Source: a virus
Direction: 5' to 3' (one strand)
Virus record (IMG/VR): IMGVR_UViG_3300044833_000114
Span: 1-64,000 of that record
DNA: 64,000 nucleotides
The position numbers and the translations under genes were made by a program. The number at the start of each line of letters is the position of its first letter. Position 1 is the stretch's first letter. A model generated the notes under the pieces. That model was given only the letters and a program-made list of their open reading frames with translations. It did no database searches and was not told the DNA's origin. Shown piece after piece: positions 10,124 through 64,000 of the stretch.

Positions 10124-12253
10124 ATGTCACGCGTCGATCCGCTGAAAGGCACAAGTACAGCGGGACTCCTCAAGCAAGAAGACGTCAAGAGCCCCATGGA
10201 AGTGACGGATGATGCTGCGCTGAAGATCGTAACACTCGACGCAAAGATGACTCGGTCCTGGATCGAGAGTCGCTATTTCAATATCCGATGGGTCGAAGTT
10301 GACCTGCTGTATCAATCCCCTCCGACGCTAAGAACGTGGGAAGGGACGTCGATGCCGAAGGCGAACATCGCCAAGTTCACGGTTGCGACTCACGTCAACG
10401 CCATCAACTCAAAGCTCGTTGGCGGTTTGTTCTACGAAGAGCCTCCATTCAGATTGACTCCGAAGCCGAGTCTCTCTGCGAACACAGCTCGCGCAATCGA
10501 AGAAATAAGTTCCACACAGCTTGACGAGATGAACTTCAAGCAGGAAGTGAAGTACGGATTTTTCTCGTGCCTGCTAAACGGAACCGGAATTTGGAAGTGG
10601 GGCTGGAAGGATTATTACAAGACTGATTGGGAGTTCACTCCCGTCGACGAACCTATGAAGGTAACAGGGTCGGACGGTCAGACGTCAGAAGTTCCGACTC
10701 AAGATTCTGACAACTTCAAAATGACGCGGAAGGAGAATCTTTGCGCTCATCCGTTCTTCGAGAACTGCGATATTCGTACGGTCCTGGTCGACCCAGGCTG
10801 CCGCGTTCCTGATATTCGCTTTGCCAAGTTCGTCATTCACGAATTTCCCGTCACGTACAAAGACCTGATGCGGATGAAGGACGAGGTCTACTACAACGAA
10901 AAGAACGAACCGATTTACCGTTACAACCTTCCGAGCGAAGAGGTAGTTCGCCAGTGGTTCGACGGAACTCAAGCCATGGATCAGGGTCAGGCTATCGCCG
11001 GCCAGAACATGGTATCGGGTCAGAACAACACGCAATTCGTTCAGCACGCGGCGCCCCTGTTCCAAAAGACGACAGAGGATCCACTGAACGAACCACTGCT
11101 CCTTCAAGAGCGTTGGGACTGCGACAAGGTCATCACCGTCCTTGCCGGACAGCGTGTGATCCGCAACGAGCCTAACCCGTTCGGTTGCATTCCATTTTAT
11201 TCAGTCAACTGGTGGATGATCCAGGATTGCTTCTGGGGCCTCGGCCTTGGGACCGCCCTGGGAGGCGAGCAGCGCCTCCAGCAAGGTTTCATCAACGCCG
11301 TTGCCGATATCGGTACGTTAGCAGCTAATCAACCTATCATCAGATCGCGCGGCGCGAACATCAACACCCAGCAAGTTCGAGCTCGGCTTGGTGGCTTCAT
11401 CGACGTCGATGGAGACGCGACGAAGGCGATGCATCCGATGGATCTTCCCAAGATTCAAGGGGAGATGTTCCAGGTTGTCGCGGCTTCCGAGTCACGCACC
11501 GAGTCGACTTCAGGCGCGAGCGAAATGCTCACGATGGGTTCATCGAAGCCCAGCGGTCGCGGTTCGTCCATGGGACGAACAGCTACTGGCGCGGGAAACA
11601 TGATGCAAGCAGCCGTCGATCGTATCGGCGGACTGGTAGAAGACTTCAACCGACAAGTGTTCCAGCCGTGGTTGTGGAAGATGTACGACCTCAATCGTAT
11701 GTTCCTTCCGCCATCCGTGTTCCGCGAAATCCTCAACGACAAGCTCGACAAAGAAGTTCACGCCTCGTTCAAGGACTTCATGGGAGCCAAGAAGGGCATT
11801 AAGGCCTTCTCCGTTCTTGCTGGTAGTCACATGGCCGCGCGTCAGCAAATGGCGCAGTCGATGCCGTTGATTATGCAGTATTTCACGAACCCAGCACTGG
11901 CCGGTCAGATTGCCGACATCAACGGGGAGTACATCGCTTACTCCGAATTGCTCCACATGCTAACGGATGTGAGCGGTTACGGGAGCGGATCCTACTACTC
12001 CATCTTCCGACCTCTAACAGCCCAGATGAAAGCGCAGCGCGCCGCACAGAATCCGGCCGCAGCCAAGATGGCAGCGCAGTCAGCTAACAACACGCAGAAG
12101 GGTGACATCAAGTCCCAGTTGCAATCGCAACAATGGACGGAGCGAGCGGCCGGAGACATCATCCGCCACTCACTTAAAGCAGCCGGAGACACTGAAGCAG
12201 TTCAAGGAAGTCCCGGCGGAAATGGATTTGGAAGTCAAGAACTTGAAGCATAA
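10124..12253 (+). CDS. Portal protein
   Basis: A 709-aa protein, the usual size for podovirus portals of the N4/Bcep22 type. Its place between terminase and capsid genes and features such as RYFNIRWVEVDLLYQ, the NPFGCIPFYSVNWWMIQDCFWG stretch (split here only by description) and an Ala/Gln-rich C-terminus support the assignment. Portals form the dodecameric ring at one capsid vertex through which DNA is packaged and ejected. Start ATG 10124 with AAAAGGCAGCT upstream. Confidence 0.85.
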   Translation: MSRVDPLKGTSTAGLLKQEDVKSPMEVTDDAALKIVTLDAKMTRSWIESRYFNIRWVEVDLLYQSPPTLRTWEGTSMPKANIAKFTVATHVNAINSKLVGGLFYEEPPFRLTPKPSLSANTARAIEEISSTQLDEMNFKQEVKYGFFSCLLNGTGIWKWGWKDYYKTDWEFTPVDEPMKVTGSDGQTSEVPTQDSDNFKMTRKENLCAHPFFENCDIRTVLVDPGCRVPDIRFAKFVIHEFPVTYKDLMRMKDEVYYNEKNEPIYRYNLPSEEVVRQWFDGTQAMDQGQAIAGQNMVSGQNNTQFVQHAAPLFQKTTEDPLNEPLLLQERWDCDKVITVLAGQRVIRNEPNPFGCIPFYSVNWWMIQDCFWGLGLGTALGGEQRLQQGFINAVADIGTLAANQPIIRSRGANINTQQVRARLGGFIDVDGDATKAMHPMDLPKIQGEMFQVVAASESRTESTSGASEMLTMGSSKPSGRGSSMGRTATGAGNMMQAAVDRIGGLVEDFNRQVFQPWLWKMYDLNRMFLPPSVFREILNDKLDKEVHASFKDFMGAKKGIKAFSVLAGSHMAARQQMAQSMPLIMQYFTNPALAGQIADINGEYIAYSELLHMLTDVSGYGSGSYYSIFRPLTAQMKAQRAAQNPAAAKMAAQSANNTQKGDIKSQLQSQQWTERAAGDIIRHSLKAAGDTEAVQGSPGGNGFGSQELEA

Positions 12254-50710: not shown

Positions 50711-50720
50711 AACCTCTCCC

Positions 50721-50781
50721 AAAAATTTAGAGAGGCGCGTCTAACATAGATTGCGGGGTGCCCGCCCCACACGCGCCTCTC
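50721..50781 (-). terminator. Rho-independent terminator after helicase gene
   Basis: On the minus strand, GAGAGGCGCGT (50771-50781) pairs with ACGCGCCTCTC (50730-50740), with an inner GGGG/CCCC pairing, and is followed by TAAATTTTT. It ends the SNF2 helicase transcript 28 bases after its stop. Confidence 0.75.
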
Positions 50782-50809
50782 CTACTGCTTGGGCTGGACT
50801 GAGTGTAAA

Positions 50810-57006: not shown

Positions 57007-57194
57007 GCTGCCACCAGCTTTCCGTCGACGATCTCGAACAGCCGCATCGTTCTTGGATCTCCCGGCACCGTTCGTGCGTTGACGTAGACTTTGCCGTTCT
57101 CGCACCAGGGGTAGGAGACAAGCTCCTTCCCCTGAACCATCGCGAACGGTTTCATTCCTTGTGCCACGAGTCGCTCACGCATGCTTAGGCTCAC
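57003..57194 (-). CDS. Small hypothetical protein
   Basis: A 63-aa protein from GTG 57194 behind GGAGGTGGCAGC, with a GTGA overlap with the upstream gene. LFEIVDGKLVAA ends it. Beta-rich. Unknown. Confidence 0.55.
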   Translation of the reverse strand: MSLSMRERLVAQGMKPFAMVQGKELVSYPWCENGKVYVNARTVPGDPRTMRLFEIVDGKLVAA

Positions 57195-57931
57195 GCTGCC
57201 ACCTCCATGATTTGAATTAACTGCGGTTGCTGCACCAGGTGCGTCGTCGGCTGCACGAAGCCGGAGCAGTCTTTCCTTGCGCGTCCCTTTGCGCGCAGAC
57301 CGATGATGCGGCTGTGTGGGTCCGTCTTGAAACGAAGGTCGTGCAAGTCTCCGTCGTAGACTTTGTACCCTTGCCACGTCTTCGGAAGCTGATGTCCTCG
57401 CTTGACGCCAAACACTACTGCAACGTTGACTCCGTGCATTAGTGCGTCCATAGCGTCGTCGATGTTCGTCTCTGATAGTGAGAACGTCAAATGGTAGTTA
57501 GGCAATGTCCGTTCCCATGGTCGCGGGTGTTTTGTGTAGTCGTAAAGCTGAACGTGTGGAAACATCGGCGCAATAGTGTGAGCTAAGTACGGAAGATCAG
57601 ACGTTCCGTTGAGTCGCACGCAAGGCTTTAGGCCGTCACGTTTCGCCTTACGGACGAGTGCTTCAATCTCCGAACACAATTGTAGCACGAACGCCGAACG
57701 ATCTTGAATCAAAAACTTCGTCTTCCGAATGCGCGCTCGGTTGATCATCGGAAACGCAGCCGCCCTGCCTGCAGTGAACAGGCAAGCCGCCTTGCATCCC
57801 GCTGACGCCGAAGCACATGTGTTGGTGACGCCGGACGAATCAGCTGGAGCGAGATAAAGGATCCCTGTTAGATAACCCTTCTTCTCACCCTTGATCGTCT
57901 TGGCGTCGTGGCTTACGGATAGTAGTTTCAT
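57191..57931 (-). CDS. Gp88-family protein (mycobacteriophage gene product 88-like)
   Basis: A 246-aa protein. GVTNTCASASAGCKAACLFT and the following RIRKTKFLIQDRSAFVLQLC are hallmarks of the Gp88-like family first named in mycobacteriophages, now known in many phages and plasmids. The Cys set CASASAGCKAAC may bind metal. Function unknown; some links to DNA modification have been discussed, but the sequence does not settle this. Confidence 0.75.
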   Translation of the reverse strand: MKLLSVSHDAKTIKGEKKGYLTGILYLAPADSSGVTNTCASASAGCKAACLFTAGRAAAFPMINRARIRKTKFLIQDRSAFVLQLCSEIEALVRKAKRDGLKPCVRLNGTSDLPYLAHTIAPMFPHVQLYDYTKHPRPWERTLPNYHLTFSLSETNIDDAMDALMHGVNVAVVFGVKRGHQLPKTWQGYKVYDGDLHDLRFKTDPHSRIIGLRAKGRARKDCSGFVQPTTHLVQQPQLIQIMEVAA

Positions 57932-58248
57932 GATTGTCCTTGATCCTGGCCCTCCGCTTTGAAGATGGCCTTATTCGCAGCAGCATCGGCAACCATCAAC
58001 GAGAAGTGTTTCCTAACGTCCAGTTTTACGACGCCGCGAAGTTCCCGTCGCAGGTCGCGGAGTGCATCCAACATCTCCGGCGCCGCTGCGATGAGACGTG
58101 CGTTGGACATCACTTCGGTGCCCGTCTGTCCGTTGGATGAGATTTCGGCTATCACTGCCTCACTTCCCGGCGCAATGACTAGACCGTTTGGCGATTCCTC
58201 CGAGACTTCAACAGTCCACGGTCCCGGAGTAAATTTCACTTCAGTCAT
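57928..58248 (-). CDS. Conserved phage hypothetical protein (TPGPW family)
   Basis: A 106-aa protein from ATG 58248 after GGAGAAAAC. The opening FTPGPWTVEVSEESPNGLVI and ARLIAAAPEMLDALRDL near residue 65 are typical of a small family common in tailed phages and of unknown function. It follows structured element E1. Confidence 0.7.
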   Translation of the reverse strand: MTEVKFTPGPWTVEVSEESPNGLVIAPGSEAVIAEISSNGQTGTEVMSNARLIAAAPEMLDALRDLRRELRGVVKLDVRKHFSLMVADAAANKAIFKAEGQDQGQS

Positions 58249-58262
58249 GTTTTCTCCTTTTC

Positions 58263-58340
58263 TTGGGGCACACAAGTGCATCCCGCACCACGGCCTTGTT
58301 AATTAACAGGGCCGTGGTATGTGAGGCGCTTTGCTTACTC
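58263..58340 (-). promoter_or_regulatory. Structured leader element E1
   Basis: On the minus strand: GAGT (58337-58340) at the upstream stop, a 9-bp stem ACCACGGCC / GGCCGTGGT around a palindromic TGTTAATTAACA loop, then CGGG..CCCCAAG, then AAAGGAG and the ATG of the Gp88-neighbour gene. GAGT can pair with ACTT in the second loop. Most divergent of seven copies; see the findings. Confidence 0.55.
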
Positions 58341-58538
58341 TTTTTCTTGTACGGGTGTGACGACTGCGATCAGTCCGGGTCGGCGCATCTCCCCGAACTT
58401 TCTAGCTGCAGCCTGGTCCATTGCGCGGATGATGGTGTAGGTTTGTCCGTCCTTCTCGTCTCGCACTAGGTTCTCGGGGCGCACGCTGCCCCGATACCAC
58501 TCGATGCGGTACCGCCGGCGGTCAGACATTTCGCTCAT
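58335..58538 (-). CDS. Small basic protein
   Basis: A 67-aa protein. Rich in Arg (MSEMSDRRRYRIEWYRGSVR) with beta/alpha pattern. Start 58538 or 58529 (both ATG, weak ribosome binding sites); overlaps the upstream gene. Ends in GAG-TAA, which is also the first base pair partner in element E1. Unknown function. Confidence 0.55.
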   Translation of the reverse strand: MSEMSDRRRYRIEWYRGSVRPENLVRDEKDGQTYTIIRAMDQAAARKFGEMRRPGLIAVVTPVQEKE

Positions 58539-58782
58539 CTTGTTCGTAGGCGAGCTGGTCCAGATAATCCTCTGAACCTTTCAGCGTGTGTTTCTTCACG
58601 TTGTTCAAGACTTCCTCCAGCTCCTCGACCGAGATGACGTTGGCCGCGATGCAGTATTCGCGCAAGTCGAGAATACGCACCTCGGCTGTCTCTGCGTTCT
58701 TGGCGAACACGGTATCATGAAACCACTGCTGCTCGTCGTTGTCGTAGCTGATGACCAAGTAGCGGTTCAGTTTTTTAGGCAT
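58522..58782 (-). CDS. Hypothetical protein
   Basis: An 86-aa protein, ATG 58782 with ACGGAGCAG upstream and an 8-nt overlap (ATGCCTAA). Alpha/beta with an acidic end (YLVISYDNDEQQWFHDTVF). Unknown. Confidence 0.6.
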   Translation of the reverse strand: MPKKLNRYLVISYDNDEQQWFHDTVFAKNAETAEVRILDLREYCIAANVISVEELEEVLNNVKKHTLKGSEDYLDQLAYEQDERNV

Positions 58783-59392
58783 TGTGTTCTGCTCCGTATT
58801 TCTGCGCGGCTGTTTCGCCTTGCGCGGTTAGCTTTGCTATGTGTGCTGCTTCGCTCTTCGCGGCTGCTGTGGCTTCTTCCCTGCAGTACTTGATATCGCC
58901 GATGAAACCCCAGCACGAATCCAGGTGCGAGTCTTCTGGGCTCTCGATGATGTAGCCGTAGACTTCGCCGGTGAGATAGCTGTCGTACTCGGATACCTCA
59001 GCCACCAGCAAGTCGATCGCTTCCTGACGCCGCTTCTTGGTGACGTTCTTGCACATCCAGTTCTCACGGATATCTTTCTTCTCCGCGTAGATGAATCCAA
59101 CCTGACCGCTGTCCCACGGACAAGAGAACGGGGAAGTACGCATCGTGATGCCGCTGTGGTCGTAGAGATAAAGCGGCAGAGCTACGCCGCCCTCTTTCTC
59201 AATGCGCTCCACGAACTCTTTGGCTTCTTCCACGCTCATGCTGTGCTTGTCGCCCAGGTCGTAGCGACGGTGAAAGCAAACCATGTGGCCGAAGTTGTCG
59301 TGGTCGGTGCGCGGATTGAATGGTTCAGAGTCCTGCAAGATGCGAACGGTTAGCCCGTCCACCTCGAAGCGCTCTACGTCATCGTTGTGCAT
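58775..59392 (-). CDS. Conserved phage hypothetical protein
   Basis: A 205-aa protein from ATG 59392 after AAAGGAGAACGT and element E2. Motifs FNPRTDHDNFGHMVCFHRRY and LDSCWGFIGDIKYC, then EEA, are shared with a family found in many tailed phages. Cys near the end of the motif, C-terminal helices. The family's function is unknown. Confidence 0.65.
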   Translation of the reverse strand: MHNDDVERFEVDGLTVRILQDSEPFNPRTDHDNFGHMVCFHRRYDLGDKHSMSVEEAKEFVERIEKEGGVALPLYLYDHSGITMRTSPFSCPWDSGQVGFIYAEKKDIRENWMCKNVTKKRRQEAIDLLVAEVSEYDSYLTGEVYGYIIESPEDSHLDSCWGFIGDIKYCREEATAAAKSEAAHIAKLTAQGETAAQKYGAEHNA

Positions 59393-59406
59393 ACGTTCTC
59401 CTTTTA

Positions 59407-59463
59407 TTGGGCGAGTGATGCCCGACAGCGCCACCATCACTGATGGCGCTGGCATGCTCACTC
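59407..59463 (-). promoter_or_regulatory. Structured leader element E2
   Basis: Minus strand: GAGTGA (59458-59463, containing the upstream TGA), stem TGGCGCTG / CAGCGCCA (positions 59426-59433 with 59444-59451), then CGGGCATCACTCGCCCAA. GAGTGA pairs perfectly with TCACTC in the small loop (6 bp), forming a pseudoknot. Directly followed by the ribosome binding site of the 205-aa gene. Confidence 0.7.
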
Positions 59464-59622
59464 CCTGTCTATGTTGAACCACTGCTCTCCCAGCTCTTCT
59501 TTCTGCTCGGTGCTTAAGGCTTCGTTTAAGACTTGAAACAAGGTCTCTTCCGGCAGCACGTTAATAACCTGCCGAAGTAAATCTGCGGTTTGCTCTGTTG
59601 TCAGCTTTCCGATATCGATCAT
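59458..59622 (-). CDS. Small acidic protein
   Basis: A 54-aa protein from ATG 59622 behind AGGGAGGAAGC. Helical, acidic (EQKEELGEQWFNIDRE). Its GAG-TGA end is the first segment of E2. Unknown. Confidence 0.55.
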   Translation of the reverse strand: MIDIGKLTTEQTADLLRQVINVLPEETLFQVLNEALSTEQKEELGEQWFNIDRE

Positions 59623-59933
59623 GCTTCCTCCCTTTTTGCGTAAGATGGTGCGAAGAACTCGAACAAATCTGCGTCGTGTTCGCGCAGGAATTCCCACTCG
59701 CGGTCAGACAAGAGCAAATCATCTGCTGGAGTTGATTCGAGATTGTCATAATCGAGAAGGTCTATATCGACGCCTCCCTCATTGATTGCTATATTGGCGA
59801 CACCTCCGTTGATCGTCACAAGCAAATACGGCTTAAATGCTTGCGCGATCTTCTTGCTTGCCGTCCTGAGTCGTCCGTGCTCCAAAGCGCTCGCGGCACT
59901 CCGGAGTAAACGTGCTTGTTCTGCTCTGGTCAT
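59619..59933 (-). CDS. Hypothetical protein
   Basis: A 104-aa protein. N-terminal helix (EQARLLRSAASALEHGRLR), a beta strand (YLLVTINGGVANIAI) and an acidic C-terminus (EHDADLFEFFAPSYAKREEA). No motif recognised. Confidence 0.6.
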   Translation of the reverse strand: MTRAEQARLLRSAASALEHGRLRTASKKIAQAFKPYLLVTINGGVANIAINEGGVDIDLLDYDNLESTPADDLLLSDREWEFLREHDADLFEFFAPSYAKREEA

Positions 59934-60118
59934 TTCGCCTCCAATGATTTGTTGTGCAGCTTGACGATGTGCTTTGCGACTTTCTCGGATATAGCTACTC
60001 CGGTGACTTCTTCTTCGCCGTCTTCGCTTGTGATGATGAACATCCCGGCGTGTAGACCGTAGGTCTTCTCGTCATCTGCAAGCTGCCATACCGCCCATTT
60101 CTGCTTGAGTATGTTCAT
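59930..60118 (-). CDS. Small protein
   Basis: A 62-aa protein from ATG 60118 (GAAAGGAAGGTGTC). MNILKQKWAVWQLADDEKTY, alpha/beta, no Cys. Unknown. Confidence 0.55.
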   Translation of the reverse strand: MNILKQKWAVWQLADDEKTYGLHAGMFIITSEDGEEEVTGVAISEKVAKHIVKLHNKSLEAK

Positions 60119-60375
60119 GACACCTTCCTTTCGTTCTGCGCTACGTGGCGCGGGCAGTACTTGCTTCCTTGGGTTGCGTCTTCGATGCACAACCCGGCGT
60201 CGCAGCACGAAGGTCCGTAGCTTATTTCTGCTCCCGCCAAAATATCCGAAAGCTTGTGGTAGGCGTCGCGCGCCGGTCCCTCCGACTCTTCGCCGGAGAA
60301 CTCACGGTCGATGAACTGCGTGTACTCCGCGCGCTTCTCGTTGACTTCAATCGTGATCGTGATCTTTGCACTCAT
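60115..60375 (-). CDS. Small Cys protein
   Basis: An 86-aa protein; beta strand start (ITITIEVNEKRAEYTQFIDR) then a Cys cluster (PSCCDAGLCIEDATQGSKYC). Possibly zinc binding. Unknown. Confidence 0.6.
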   Translation of the reverse strand: MSAKITITIEVNEKRAEYTQFIDREFSGEESEGPARDAYHKLSDILAGAEISYGPSCCDAGLCIEDATQGSKYCPRHVAQNERKVS

Positions 60376-60509
60376 GCTGCCTCCCTTTCCTGCTTCTTAA
60401 ACTCAAGTTTCTGCTTTGGTTTTGGTGTCGGCCTCACTGCGCGGCCGAAAGAGAGTACGAAACCTACAGACACAACGAACCACGCTGAGAAAACTCCTGC
60501 TGCTATCAT
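60372..60509 (-). CDS. 45-residue membrane protein
   Basis: From ATG 60509 after AGAAAGGGAGGCCTG. Hydrophobic (AAGVFSAWFVVSVGFVLSFG) then basic/proline-rich. TGATG and ATGA junctions support coding. Unknown. Confidence 0.5.
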   Translation of the reverse strand: MIAAGVFSAWFVVSVGFVLSFGRAVRPTPKPKQKLEFKKQEREAA

Positions 60510-60628
60510 CAGGCCTCCCTTTCTATGAACGGCTGCACGCGGTTTGCTTCGCGCTGCCATCCCTCAAACTCTTGAATCTCCAGCTCCAGCTCTGTTTCTG
60601 TTTGTATTTCTGTTTGAGTCTCTTGCAT
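60509..60628 (-). CDS. 39-residue acidic peptide
   Basis: From ATG 60628 (AAAGGAGAAAC). MQETQTEIQTETELELEIQE is a Gln/Glu-rich amphipathic stretch. TGATG downstream junction. Encoding confirmed only by context. Confidence 0.45.
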   Translation of the reverse strand: MQETQTEIQTETELELEIQEFEGWQREANRVQPFIEREA

Positions 60629-60641
60629 GTTTCTCCTTTGC

Positions 60642-60698
60642 TTGGGAAGTGAATCCCGACGCGCACCCTCTCAGCGAAGGTGCGCGGCATGTTCACTC
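60642..60698 (-). promoter_or_regulatory. Structured leader element E3
   Basis: Minus strand: AGTGAA (60692-60697) after the antirestriction stop, stem GCGCACC / GGTGCGC (60661-60667 with 60679-60685), then CGGGATTCACTTCCCAA. AGTGAA pairs perfectly with TTCACT in the small loop (60648-60653). Then AAGGAG and the 39-aa gene. Confidence 0.7.
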
Positions 60699-61626
60699 AC
60701 GCTGCGACTGCTGCCAGCTCCGGTTCTTGTTGCGGTTGCTCTACGGGCTTCTCGAACTTCACGTCTCGGATGTGATCGCAGGCTTTCTGCGCCGCGCTGA
60801 TGGATTGCATCAGCATCTTCTTGTTGTTGTCGTTGAGCTTGAGCTTCTCAAGCCAGTGCTTGATGTAGGCCGCACTGTTCTCGACGACCGCAGGGGCGAT
60901 GCCGACGACACCGCACAGCATCGAAGCGCCGAACTCTGCGACCAGCTCCTCAGCGCTGTACTTGTCGCCGCCAAAGCCATCACCGTTCGTGATGCCTTCG
61001 CGACTCAGCCTCTTGAGTGCGCCGGTTGAGTGCACCATCTCGTGGAACAAGGTGCTGTAGTATTCGCGTTGCTCCTTGAATGCTCCGCGAACCGGCGTGC
61101 CGATCAGGTCTTCGGACGGACGGTAGAAGGCTGCACCGGCGTCCACCAGCTTCGGCTTATCCGGGTATCCATCCCAGATTGCTTGCGCCGCCGGCAGATC
61201 CTCGATTGGTGCCTGGGGTTTGTTGAGCCCGAGTTCTTCGGCTAGCTCCGGGTTGCACTGGGTGATGTTGAAGACGTGCCAGGTCTTCCAGTACCCGGCG
61301 CGCGTGGTGCCGTCCTCGCCCGTCTCTTCGTTCCTGCTCTTGCGGTCATAAACTGCGTACTTGCAGATCGCAGTTCCCTTCTCACCCTTCATGACGTGAC
61401 CGCCCAGGTCCTTGGCCTGCTTCGCAGTGAGCCACCAGGGAGAAGCCTTCTGCTGCAACATGAGCAGGAAGACATTCATTCCGCGGTACTCTTTCTGACT
61501 GATGAGATTCTTGGGAAGGCCTTGACTGACCCAGGGCTTGCGCCACGGGACAGTGCCTGCCTCAAGCTGCGATATGATCTGGTCTGCCGCTTGCTGATAC
61601 GGCGACACTTTCTTCTGGTCTTCCAT
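60697..61626 (-). CDS. ardC: ArdC-like antirestriction protein
   Basis: A 309-aa protein from ATG 61626 (GAGGTGACT). The N-terminal ~130 residues (SPYQQAADQIISQLEAGTVP, PWRKPW) match the ArdC N-terminal ssDNA-binding domain; the C-terminus is a zincin-like metallopeptidase with TLFHEMVHSTG (~195) and a later LVAEFGASML. Plasmid ArdC protects incoming DNA from type I restriction. An Ala-rich C-terminal tail follows. Located between E3 and E4. Confidence 0.85.
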   Translation of the reverse strand: MEDQKKVSPYQQAADQIISQLEAGTVPWRKPWVSQGLPKNLISQKEYRGMNVFLLMLQQKASPWWLTAKQAKDLGGHVMKGEKGTAICKYAVYDRKSRNEETGEDGTTRAGYWKTWHVFNITQCNPELAEELGLNKPQAPIEDLPAAQAIWDGYPDKPKLVDAGAAFYRPSEDLIGTPVRGAFKEQREYYSTLFHEMVHSTGALKRLSREGITNGDGFGGDKYSAEELVAEFGASMLCGVVGIAPAVVENSAAYIKHWLEKLKLNDNNKKMLMQSISAAQKACDHIRDVKFEKPVEQPQQEPELAAVAA

Positions 61627-61637
61627 AGTCACCTCGA

Positions 61638-61688
61638 TTGGGAATGAGTCCCGGTCGCCCTACCAAGGCAGGGCGAACGCGTTCACTC
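61638..61688 (-). promoter_or_regulatory. Structured leader element E4
   Basis: Minus strand: GAGTGAACGC overlapping the upstream TGA, stem TCGCCCT / AGGGCGA (61655-61661 with 61670-61676), then CCGGGACTCATTCCCAAT. GAGT/ACTC gives the loop pairing. The ArdC ribosome binding site follows. Confidence 0.7.
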
Positions 61689-61973
61689 CGTAGGTATGTC
61701 CAGCTCGAATTCAAACGGATTGAAGTAATGCGGACGATGTATCTCGTCGCCATCCCCGTCATAAATTGTGTTGTCGAAGTTCTCAATGAACTTCTCGACG
61801 TCGGCGGGCAGATCAACTCGCACTTTGAGAGCCGTGACGGTCGCGTATGAGCCTTCAACGTGCACGATTGTATTCAGAGCTTCACTCATGCACAGAGCTA
61901 TCGGGCAGTGATTTGGGTCGTCCTGTATTCCTCTCGCGATGTGGTCTTTCGTAACTTCAAATTTACGCAGCAT
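61683..61973 (-). CDS. Conserved phage hypothetical protein
   Basis: A 96-aa protein. FEVTKDHIARGIQDDPNHCP and IALCMSEAL near residue 25 are typical of a family found in actinobacteriophages and others (VT..HI..G....P..CPiA.A). A C-terminal beta/acidic part. Function unknown. It ends in GAG-TGA, the beginning of E4. Confidence 0.65.
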   Translation of the reverse strand: MLRKFEVTKDHIARGIQDDPNHCPIALCMSEALNTIVHVEGSYATVTALKVRVDLPADVEKFIENFDNTIYDGDGDEIHRPHYFNPFEFELDIPTE

Positions 61974-61985
61974 TCGTCCTCCTGT

Positions 61986-62036
61986 TTGGGAATGAGTCCC
62001 GGCGAGCCCACCGTGATGGGCTCGACGCGTTCACTC
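61986..62036 (-). promoter_or_regulatory. Structured leader element E5
   Basis: Minus strand: GAGTGAACGCGT, stem CGAGCCCA / TGGGCTCG (62003-62010 with 62017-62024), CCGGGACTCATTCCCAAA, then AGGAGG and the ATG at 61973. The flanks are identical to E4 while the stem differs at nearly every base, so pairing, not sequence, is conserved. Confidence 0.75.
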
Positions 62037-62222
62037 TGCGAAAGTAACGAACGTTATTTCGAAGTACTCATCCTGCGGCCCCGACTCATTGTCCATGCCT
62101 CGTTCCGGTTCGTACTCCTCTTTCCAGTACTCTTGCAACTTGTCTTCTGTTGGCTCTTCGCGAAACAGAGCGAAGTCTTCTCCGTGTCTGTGGTGATAAA
62201 TCCCCAACCAATGACCCTTCAT
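62031..62222 (-). CDS. Small hypothetical protein
   Basis: A 63-aa acidic protein (HGEDFALFREEPTEDKLQEY) with an aromatic start (MKGHWLGIYHHRHG). Its GAG-TGA stop is the beginning of E5. Unknown. Confidence 0.6.
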   Translation of the reverse strand: MKGHWLGIYHHRHGEDFALFREEPTEDKLQEYWKEEYEPERGMDNESGPQDEYFEITFVTFAE

Positions 62223-62419
62223 GCGACCTCCTGTTTTCCTGCGTAGTGGATTGTTGGCTTGCTAACGCTGGGTGGTGCGCCTTTCTTGTTGAGCACGTAG
62301 CCGTCGAAGTGCATGTCCCGCTCAATCTTCAAACCAAACGGGCCTTTGACAGACTGAAGCTCGGACAGATTGAAGTAGCCGAGTTCCTTCTCGTGGCCTT
62401 CGACCAGACCGAAGAACAT
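62219..62419 (-). CDS. DUF2958-like protein, apparently frameshifted
   Basis: A 66-aa open frame matching the core of DUF2958 (FFGLVEGHEKELGYFNLSEL, GPFGLKIERDMHF). The family's WYAVEG segment and an inserted CPEHACFDCTECP lie in the same frame upstream, to 62509, but that stretch has no start codon and is closed by a TGA (62510-62512). A GTG at 62513 (AAGGAGG upstream) in another frame probably is the true start, one base off. So a single-base indel, sequence error or +1 frameshift is likely. DUF2958 genes often accompany ArdC. Confidence 0.55.
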   Translation of the reverse strand: MFFGLVEGHEKELGYFNLSELQSVKGPFGLKIERDMHFDGYVLNKKGAPPSVSKPTIHYAGKQEVA

Positions 62420-62509
62420 AAACTCAGTCCATGTCTCCTTCGGGCATTCGGTGCAGTCGAAGCATGCATGCTCGGGGCAGACCAGCGAACCCTCGACTGC
62501 GTACCAGGA

Positions 62510-62635
62510 TCACAGCGCCCTCCTTGTGTGGCCGCATCTTAGGCAACGCCACCACTTACCGAGTACGTTGGCTAACTCAAACTTGCGTTGCTTCTGACAA
62601 TGTGTGCAGGTCAGCCAGCGAATGTCGGGAGTCAT
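62510..62635 (-). CDS. 41-residue zinc-ribbon protein
   Basis: From ATG 62635. LTCTHCQKQRKFE and WWRCLRCGHTRRA form a C-x2-C ... C-x2-C zinc ribbon. Stop TGA overlaps a GTG at 62513 that probably starts the DUF2958 gene. ATGA overlap upstream. Confidence 0.6.
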   Translation of the reverse strand: MTPDIRWLTCTHCQKQRKFELANVLGKWWRCLRCGHTRRAL

Positions 62636-62892
62636 AACACTCCCGCTGACTTCGCCACTTGTTCCTCAAAGTTGCCGTGGTCCAGCCATCGCGACACAAA
62701 CTTCGTGACGCAAGATTGTCCACAGACATCCGCATCGAATGCAGGATTAGTTCCGTTAGAATCTCCCGCTGCCATAATGCGAAGTTCGACGTCGCCACTC
62801 TTCAACGTAACCACGACGTGAATCCTCCACCAGTGGTTCGCCTCTTTCTTCGGCGCACCGCAACAATCGCAAACAACTACTTTGTTCATCAT
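62632..62892 (-). CDS. Small protein with Cys/His cluster
   Basis: An 86-aa protein from ATG 62892 (GGAGGCAACCA). Cys cluster at the start (CDCCGAPKKE) and CGQSCVTKFV later form a likely zinc site; the middle is beta-rich (RIHVVVTLKSGDVELRIMAA). Unknown. Confidence 0.6.
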   Translation of the reverse strand: MMNKVVVCDCCGAPKKEANHWWRIHVVVTLKSGDVELRIMAAGDSNGTNPAFDADVCGQSCVTKFVSRWLDHGNFEEQVAKSAGVL

Positions 62893-63143
62893 TGGTTGCC
62901 TCCAAAGTCGTACTCGAATGCAGCGTCGTGACCTAGCGTGCGCAGGCCCACCACCGTCATGCTGCCGTCTTTGGCGCGGTACTCTGAAGTGTCCGAATAG
63001 CGGAATTGTTGCTTAGGCCAATACTCTGAATCGTGCTTCCGTTGAACCCTTGGCCGCACAGGCTGTAGGGAGATGACTGTGTCCAGGGTGCCGTCATCTT
63101 CAAGACACACGTCGAACAGTACGCCGTTTGCGCGTATTCTCAT
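62889..63143 (-). CDS. Hypothetical protein
   Basis: An 84-aa protein from ATG 63143 (AAGAGGCGTGACG), chosen over GTG 63149. Beta-rich (RIRANGVLFDVCLEDDGTLD), charged. Follows E6. Unknown. Confidence 0.6.
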   Translation of the reverse strand: MRIRANGVLFDVCLEDDGTLDTVISLQPVRPRVQRKHDSEYWPKQQFRYSDTSEYRAKDGSMTVVGLRTLGHDAAFEYDFGGNQ

Positions 63144-63154
63144 CGTCACGCCTC

Positions 63155-63215
63155 TTGGGGGAAAGTATCCCGCAAGCCCCCAAGCTAAGCCGGAGGGCTT
63201 ACGCGCTACTTACTC
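63155..63215 (-). promoter_or_regulatory. Structured leader element E6
   Basis: Minus strand: GAGTAAGTA (the GAG-TAA end of the upstream gene), stem AAGCCC / GGGCTT (63174-63179 with 63195-63200), CGGGATACTTTCCCCCAA, then AGAGG and the next gene. AAGTA pairs with TACTT (5 bp); both sides have changed relative to E2-E5. Confidence 0.65.
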
Positions 63216-63812
63216 CACAGCTTTCTTCCAGATGCTGAACGAGATGTCGAACTGACCTACGCCGTCGATGTTGAAGAGCAAACGCTTGTGACCTGCGTCG
63301 TGCAAGCGCTTGTATATCGCTTTAGGGTTGTCATTCTGTCCTGGGTGAAAGCCGCTCTCGAAGTCTCCTTCGAGCTTGATGTAGCCGTAATCGGCTGGGC
63401 TGATGTGGTCGTTGAGTGCACGGCGTGGGTTGTCTTCGATGCTTTCCAGATACTCTTCTATCGGGCAGCAGTCCACACAGAACAGCTCGCAGTCGTTCAT
63501 GATGAAGTAACTGGGCTGCCATCCCCAGCAGTTAGGGCTCATGCGAATAGCCTTGTTGCACTCCTGACAGTTAGACCATTCGTCCGACCACTCGATCTCG
63601 TAGCCGTAAGCTTCCAGCAAACGAGTCGCATCACCGGAGAACTTGTTCCAGTTGCCGAACAGAATTCCCTTCTTCGGGTCTTTGTAGCCTGGTTCCGCGT
63701 ACTCGTGGGACCAGCCTAGGTTCTCGATCTCGCTTTCTCTTGCTCGCAAATCGTATGGTCCGCAGGATGGCGGACGACACAGCGACTTGCGAAGAATGTA
63801 CTCTGGAGTCAT
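63210..63812 (-). CDS. Hypothetical protein with Cys/Trp-rich middle
   Basis: A 200-aa protein from ATG 63812 (GAAAGGACTGCT). NLGWSHEYAEPGYKDPKKGI and a zinc-like set NCQECNKAI, SPNCWGW, LFCVDCCPIEEY in the middle, and an HPGQ-containing C-terminus. A similar layout is present in enterobacterial phage proteins of unknown role. Ends GAG-TAA in E6. Confidence 0.6.
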   Translation of the reverse strand: MTPEYILRKSLCRPPSCGPYDLRARESEIENLGWSHEYAEPGYKDPKKGILFGNWNKFSGDATRLLEAYGYEIEWSDEWSNCQECNKAIRMSPNCWGWQPSYFIMNDCELFCVDCCPIEEYLESIEDNPRRALNDHISPADYGYIKLEGDFESGFHPGQNDNPKAIYKRLHDAGHKRLLFNIDGVGQFDISFSIWKKAVE

Positions 63813-63827
63813 AGCAGTCCTTTCGCG

Positions 63828-63885
63828 TTGGGAGAATGTCCCGCAGCGCCCACACTCTCGGATGGGCGCTACGTGCTCTTCTCTC
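63828..63885 (-). promoter_or_regulatory. Structured leader element E7
   Basis: Minus strand: GAGAA (63879-63883), stem AGCGCCCA / TGGGCGCT (63845-63852 with 63863-63870), CGGGACATTCTCCCAA. GAGAA pairs with TTCTC in the small loop, again a compensated change. The gene at 63812 follows. Confidence 0.65.
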
Positions 63886-63887
63886 AC

Positions 63888-64000
63888 TTATCCGTTCGGA
63901 TTCATTGCCTTCTCGCCCCAACCTCTGGGGTGAGGTTCTTCGTGGTCTACATATTCGTCGTCGCGTTCCGCTTCTATCTCGGCGCACCAGTTGCATGTAT
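63888..64000 (-). CDS. Partial protein, 3' part only (cut by right edge)
   Basis: C-terminal ~36 residues of a minus-strand gene entering from the right edge: CNWCAEIEAERDDEYVDHEE then a Gly/Pro end. One CxxC pair is visible. E7 follows its stop. No family can be named. Confidence 0.5.
   Translation of the reverse strand, partial: TCNWCAEIEAERDDEYVDHEEPHPRGWGEKAMNPNG

Follow-up and report, generated by a model that had tools for sequence, protein, structure and literature searches.

What fills the short gaps between successive leftward genes in one operon of a viral contig, and what does the filling do? An earlier note on positions 1 to 64,000 of the virus record IMGVR_UViG_3300044833_000114 (the window; the record has 93,931 bases) had described seven minus-strand elements at 58263-63885, each with a strand at the upstream stop codon (A), a hairpin (B) and a short stem (C) whose loop (A') pairs with A. 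Reading the minus strand recovered all seven at those places, each between a stop codon and the Shine-Dalgarno sequence or ATG of the next gene (Table 1). The count of seven stands for the window, but the phage has at least 14 intercistronic elements, as seven more occur at contig 64.8-66.3 kb, just beyond the window.

Table 1. Features of the leftward operon in the window (window coordinates; A, B, C and A' are the parts of each element)
Feature	Position	Strand	A	B	C	A'	Remark
Leftward operon, window part	57191..64000	-					continues to contig 66.6 kb
Element E1	58263..58323	-	58318-58323 CACATA	58288-58317	58282-58284/58265-58267	58269-58274 TGTGTG	
Element E2	59407..59463	-	59458-59463 GAGTGA	59426-59451	59421-59423/59409-59411	59413-59418 TCACTC	A includes stop TGA
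Element E3	60642..60698	-	60692-60698 GAGTGAA	60660-60686	60655-60657/60644-60646	60647-60653 TTCACTT	
ArdC-like anti-restriction protein gene (ArdcN + MPTase-PolyVal)	60697..61626	-					between E4 and E3
Element E4	61638..61688	-	61683-61688 GAGTGA	61655-61676	61650-61652/61640-61642	61642-61647 TCATTC	A includes stop TGA
Element E5	61986..62036	-	62031-62036 GAGTGA	62003-62024	61998-62000/61988-61990	61990-61995 TCATTC	A includes stop TGA
Element E6	63155..63211	-	63207-63211 AAGTA	63174-63200	63169-63171/63157-63159	63163-63167 TACTT	A overlaps stop TAA
Element E7	63828..63883	-	63879-63883 GAGAA	63844-63871	63840-63842/63830-63832	63832-63836 TTCTC	

Some pairings differ from those first proposed. 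The A/A' helix of E4 and E5, given as 4 bp, actually has 6 bp with one G-U (GAGTGA/TCATTC), and the proposed E7 helix GAGAA/TTCTC does pair, with the correction that stem C contributes its first C to this helix. E1 had been called weak; it pairs only as CACATA/TGTGTG and is still the weakest member, with A adjoining B and beginning 14 nt past the start of the stop codon. Stem C is an invariant GGG/CCC in all window copies, so its variation is visible only in copies outside the window, where it is also GACG/CGTC, GAGT/ACTC, GTC/GAC, GGTC/GACC or GAGC/GCTC.

The elements follow the organization of the operon closely. Its genes were called by hand over the whole stretch (29 genes, 28 junctions). 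At 12 junctions the genes overlap or abut, and none of these has an element; 14 have a gap of 56-99 nt, each with an element; and two are irregular gaps without one, of 190 nt (with another structure) and 90 nt (probably a short ORF). The operon genes are joined either by overlapping stop and start codons or by an element. Elsewhere on the contig, operons show gaps of every size, and a search of the remaining contig with the covariance model described below (R1) found no elements outside the one operon, though long gaps occur there too. One more element, outside the window, precedes the first gene of the operon, and in three phages this first gene is preceded by a copy without an upstream stop codon. 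Distant segments of the 190-nt gap (minus strand; contig 64.15-64.35 kb, L005 7154-7345) could pair as CCAGTACT/AGTACTGG, which would mask some of the Shine-Dalgarno sequence.

Within the gaps, position is kept at both ends of the element, which is about 50-65 nt long. The stop codon of the preceding gene is normally covered by strand A or directly adjacent to it; in 21 of 25 copies it lies at most 4 nt from where A starts, despite the variation of A itself (GAGTGA, CTAGTT, ATAATC, TAAGT). Hairpin B begins a median of 13 nt past the stop (IQR 12-15), and in most copies the 3' end falls 0-9 nt ahead of the next Shine-Dalgarno sequence. The location of A on the stop codon may merely reflect compact packing. 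Gap lengths are not in one frame, and stimulation of frameshifting or read-through was dropped for this reason; sequestration of the Shine-Dalgarno sequence by A' was also dropped, as variants such as AACTAG or GATTAT are unable to pair with it.

The earlier note had suggested building a covariance model from the copies. R1 was built from six training copies, E2-E5 among them, with only hairpin B and stem C encoded as pairs and A/A' left out. It scores E2-E5 at 57-65 bits and finds E7 (37 bits) and E6 (23 bits), neither used for training, plus members in two other contigs; E1 was not found by R1, and the antisense strand scores at most 23 bits. In the R1-aligned set, two-sided changes occur at nine of the ten pairs of hairpin B and 98% of B cells are paired, in line with the original description of a hairpin that varies in sequence yet stays paired. 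Double-change cells number 31 over the whole structure versus 9.2 in shuffles, and every one of 500 shuffles fell short of the real structure on all five measures. This covariation signal is gone when partners are slid by 1-3 columns, collapsing already at one column. Stem C, which does not vary in this set, is uninformative on covariation there. RNAfold z-scores average -4.6 over 27 elements.

The second proposed helix was assessed by permuting partners. Among the 15 copies found by R1, A/A' fits its own partner better than permuted partners at three window sizes (p<=0.0003), and the nine non-training R1 members give p=0.0005-0.008. A wider curated set of 27 gives p<5e-5; A/A' pairing guided part of its selection, so the smaller R1-found set is the fair test. 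Since MAFFT misaligned the wider set, counts rest on a CM-fitted alignment (A8). A/A' is lost in one copy (F8). Covariation in B together with the matching of A and A' supports the predicted fold, an H-type pseudoknot with an inserted hairpin, and the two covarying helices that the first reading had proposed.

These data bear on the level at which the elements act. Inverted repeats that act solely as DNA, as recombination or protein-binding sites where modules meet, would agree with the fact that the elements bound groups of genes. However, B and A contain G-U pairs, A has its pseudoknot partner A', the orientation strictly follows the genes and the antisense score is low, and we regard this largely refuted explanation as very improbable. 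A riboswitch or self-cleaving ribozyme, which a compact pseudoknot upstream of genes might bring to mind and which the earlier note had listed as a riboswitch-like role, is hardly credible: no nucleotide is conserved in all copies, so the invariant core expected of either is absent, and L005, L044 and L045 had no Rfam match to such a family even at relaxed thresholds.

The motif had been described as unrecognized, and the Rfam searches agree, with no match in the window at gathering thresholds and only a tRNA and chance-level hits in L005, L044 and L045 at relaxed ones. Simple terminators had been excluded at the outset for want of a T-run; an intrinsic terminator consists of a GC-rich hairpin and a U run, and in the copies listed the sequence after stem C is AA or the Shine-Dalgarno region, with no T-run. 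Elsewhere in the window, a long hairpin followed by TAAATTTTT (50711-50809, minus strand) resembles an ordinary intrinsic terminator, unlike the elements.

A put-like or anti-Rho element would prevent termination of RNA polymerase in untranslated gaps. The untranslated gaps of this operon are indeed filled by structured RNA with no T-run after it, and the put RNA of phage HK022, likewise structured and about as long, also belongs to an early operon. In contrast, put is found in two copies close to early promoters; it combines two stem-loops and a triplex, its sequence is shared, and it acts on RNA polymerase through the zinc-binding domain of the enzyme (PMC9378689). Here almost every gap has a copy, at least 14 in all, and these have no shared sequence and form a pseudoknot around one inserted hairpin. 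The put-like role raised in the earlier note is disfavoured by copy number, distribution and fold, and we consider it improbable.

By position, the nearest described elements are the SAS/ESAS (start-associated sequences with extended inverted repeats) of cluster K mycobacteriophages. Both kinds occur in many copies just 5' of start codons, the upstream stop codon can fall inside SAS/ESAS, and about half of the copies have an inverted repeat (ESAS) upstream of a short GGG...CCC motif. Unlike the present elements, SAS/ESAS have a conserved sequence with the Shine-Dalgarno inside the motif, and the study describing them saw little evidence of mRNA hairpins (PMC3203893). The SAS loop of TM4 has no strong partner upstream, i.e. 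no pseudoknot partner. Searching before start codons for the 13-bp SAS consensus GGGATAGGAGCCC with up to two mismatches gave two matches in the window, not above shuffles and neither at an element, and in place of 17-bp inverted repeats with a conserved consensus the B arms vary between copies and covary.

The pseudoknot class reaches several other phages by architecture, its sequence changing while the knotted shape is kept. The members found by R1 in other contigs are in two related phages (G015 and G017), and the same architecture with different sequences was found in three further contigs (L104, L105 and L106) using a search pattern with one A/A' version built in. L063 has one clear copy (TAATC/GATTA). 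Three other gaps of L063, at 4430, 4790 and 5170, have AGTATC/GATACT-like arms with GGG..CCC (the third partial) and no clear hairpin B, and are possibly degenerate relatives. In Tunturi_3, an isolated phage of Tunturiibacter, three gaps in a leftward block of annotated genes hold a copy (78443-78523, 77662-77737 and 75277-75344). The sequences are quite different, and a clean compensatory change distinguishes two of these copies (CTAATGG/CTATTAG versus CAAATGG/CTATTTG). The R1 search does not detect these copies, so their tie to the window elements is one of architecture, not sequence, and may reflect either common descent or convergence. Three Tunturi_3 gaps of similar size (70378-70453, 75558-75633 and 76995-77068) contain no element and have sigma-70-like sequences with a TTGACA box instead.

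An architecture-only scan of six loci, which required base pairing, a stop codon close by and an ORF downstream, gave 26 on the coding strand versus 2 on the opposite strand; the stop/start filter was added because a context-free free energy scan for A-B-C had a high background in GC-rich DNA. The parts of Tunturi_2 and Tunturi_4 that were scanned had no clear members, and the best R1 match at Acidobacteriota MAG loci retrieved via the first-gene protein had E=0.28. R1 gave no match at E<=0.001 in 399 Terriglobia genomes, a null that shows little given the strict filters and lack of a positive control. Exact pattern matches in L007 (a repeat-rich region) and in L096 and L097 (within coding sequence) were read as chance. 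Among known phages, the portal protein of the contig has its best match in that of Tunturi_3 (34% identity), a podovirus of the acidobacterium Tunturiibacter (PMC11924767). From this match we infer that the host of this soil phage likely belongs to the Acidobacteriota.

The free sequence, the kept shape, the start on a stop codon and the end at a ribosome-binding site lead us to read the element as a barrier separating translation units, a structure-only intercistronic insulator that starts a new unit; we advance this tentatively, as somewhat short of probable. The point about 13 nt past a stop codon is near the front edge of a terminating ribosome. As a cis-acting RNA module that fills the space from one translation unit to the next in a polycistronic phage mRNA, the element would have strand A paired with the loop of stem C and the strong hairpin B in between, forming a barrier that would work by shape, not sequence. 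A terminating ribosome would sit over A and the linker, its leading edge roughly at hairpin B, and on its departure A would pair with the C loop and close the knot. The closed knot would keep ribosomes that have just terminated from sliding on to the following gene and would also prevent upstream RNA from base-pairing with the next ribosome-binding site. The next unit would thus initiate independently, and within units 4-nt overlaps would couple the genes. According to a review, structure just 3' of a stop codon reduces translational coupling (PMC12548453). Copies ahead of first genes have no upstream stop, so insulation from terminating ribosomes cannot be the sole role; protecting or defining a 5' end would fit both these and the intercistronic copies. 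The loss of A/A' in F8 and the restriction of the elements to a single operon also speak against the insulator.

The main rivals of the insulator, itself a form of the translation control that the earlier note had raised, are an mRNA-processing or stability element, processing being another role raised there, and a protein-binding operator. For the former, a host nuclease would cut the fold, or the fold would block exonucleases, making each unit a separately stable mRNA. The early transcript of T7 has intercistronic RNase III sites at several junctions, with structure from the stop codon to the next ribosome-binding site, the same location as here; those hairpins are longer and form no such pseudoknot. 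Processing would also suit the strong hairpins, a structure retained as sequence drifts and the copy in the 5' leader of the first gene, but hairpin B has only about 10 bp and no cut-site sequence is conserved, so that we see it as possible and rather unlikely.

For the latter, one phage or host protein would bind all copies and jointly repress or activate translation of these genes, as many copies near ribosome-binding sites in a single operon might suggest. The T4-type gene 32 leader offers a phage precedent, an mRNA pseudoknot upstream of the ribosome-binding site, but it serves one gene, is bound by that gene's own product and lies 67 nt upstream of the start codon (PMC3014915), whereas the elements serve many genes. 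Very different sequence versions exist, and no unpaired bases are conserved across copies for a protein to read, making this operator unlikely.

In this operon almost all plain gaps hold a pseudoknot, which covaries strongly and matches no known RNA family. The insulator reading extends to a broader proposal, which we hold a little more loosely: that stop-codon-anchored pseudoknots may be a phage-borne class of structure-only RNA dividers, cutting polycistronic mRNAs into independently translated units, with architecture shared and sequence free among diverse phages, including a growable isolate. With relatives in an isolated phage of a cultivable host, the ways in which phages keep adjacent genes of one mRNA apart or link them become directly testable. 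The elements may also help to interpret those of the SAS/ESAS kind, the role of which has been a question since 2011.

Further non-coding features occur near this operon, beyond the window. In three related phages (L005 9590-10180, L044 2745-3200 and L045 16080-16700, minus strands), the operon's first gene is preceded by a long non-coding leader that is highly structured and had no match in an Rfam search. The three leaders share the motif GTTCGC..GAAAGACCGG..CCGGAAGAGC..GCGAAC, the G017 copy being the loosest. A 15-mer, GGGGCACCC(A/T/G)GCG(C/T)C, recurs in all three phages (L005 near 9030 and 10440, L044 near 2160 and 3955, L045 near 14415; minus strands). Between two divergent operons, a non-coding region at L005 about 11000-11400 (contig 68.0-68.4 kb) contains AGGATGTAATTC-like repeat units and a CA run, and these repeats are possibly an origin.
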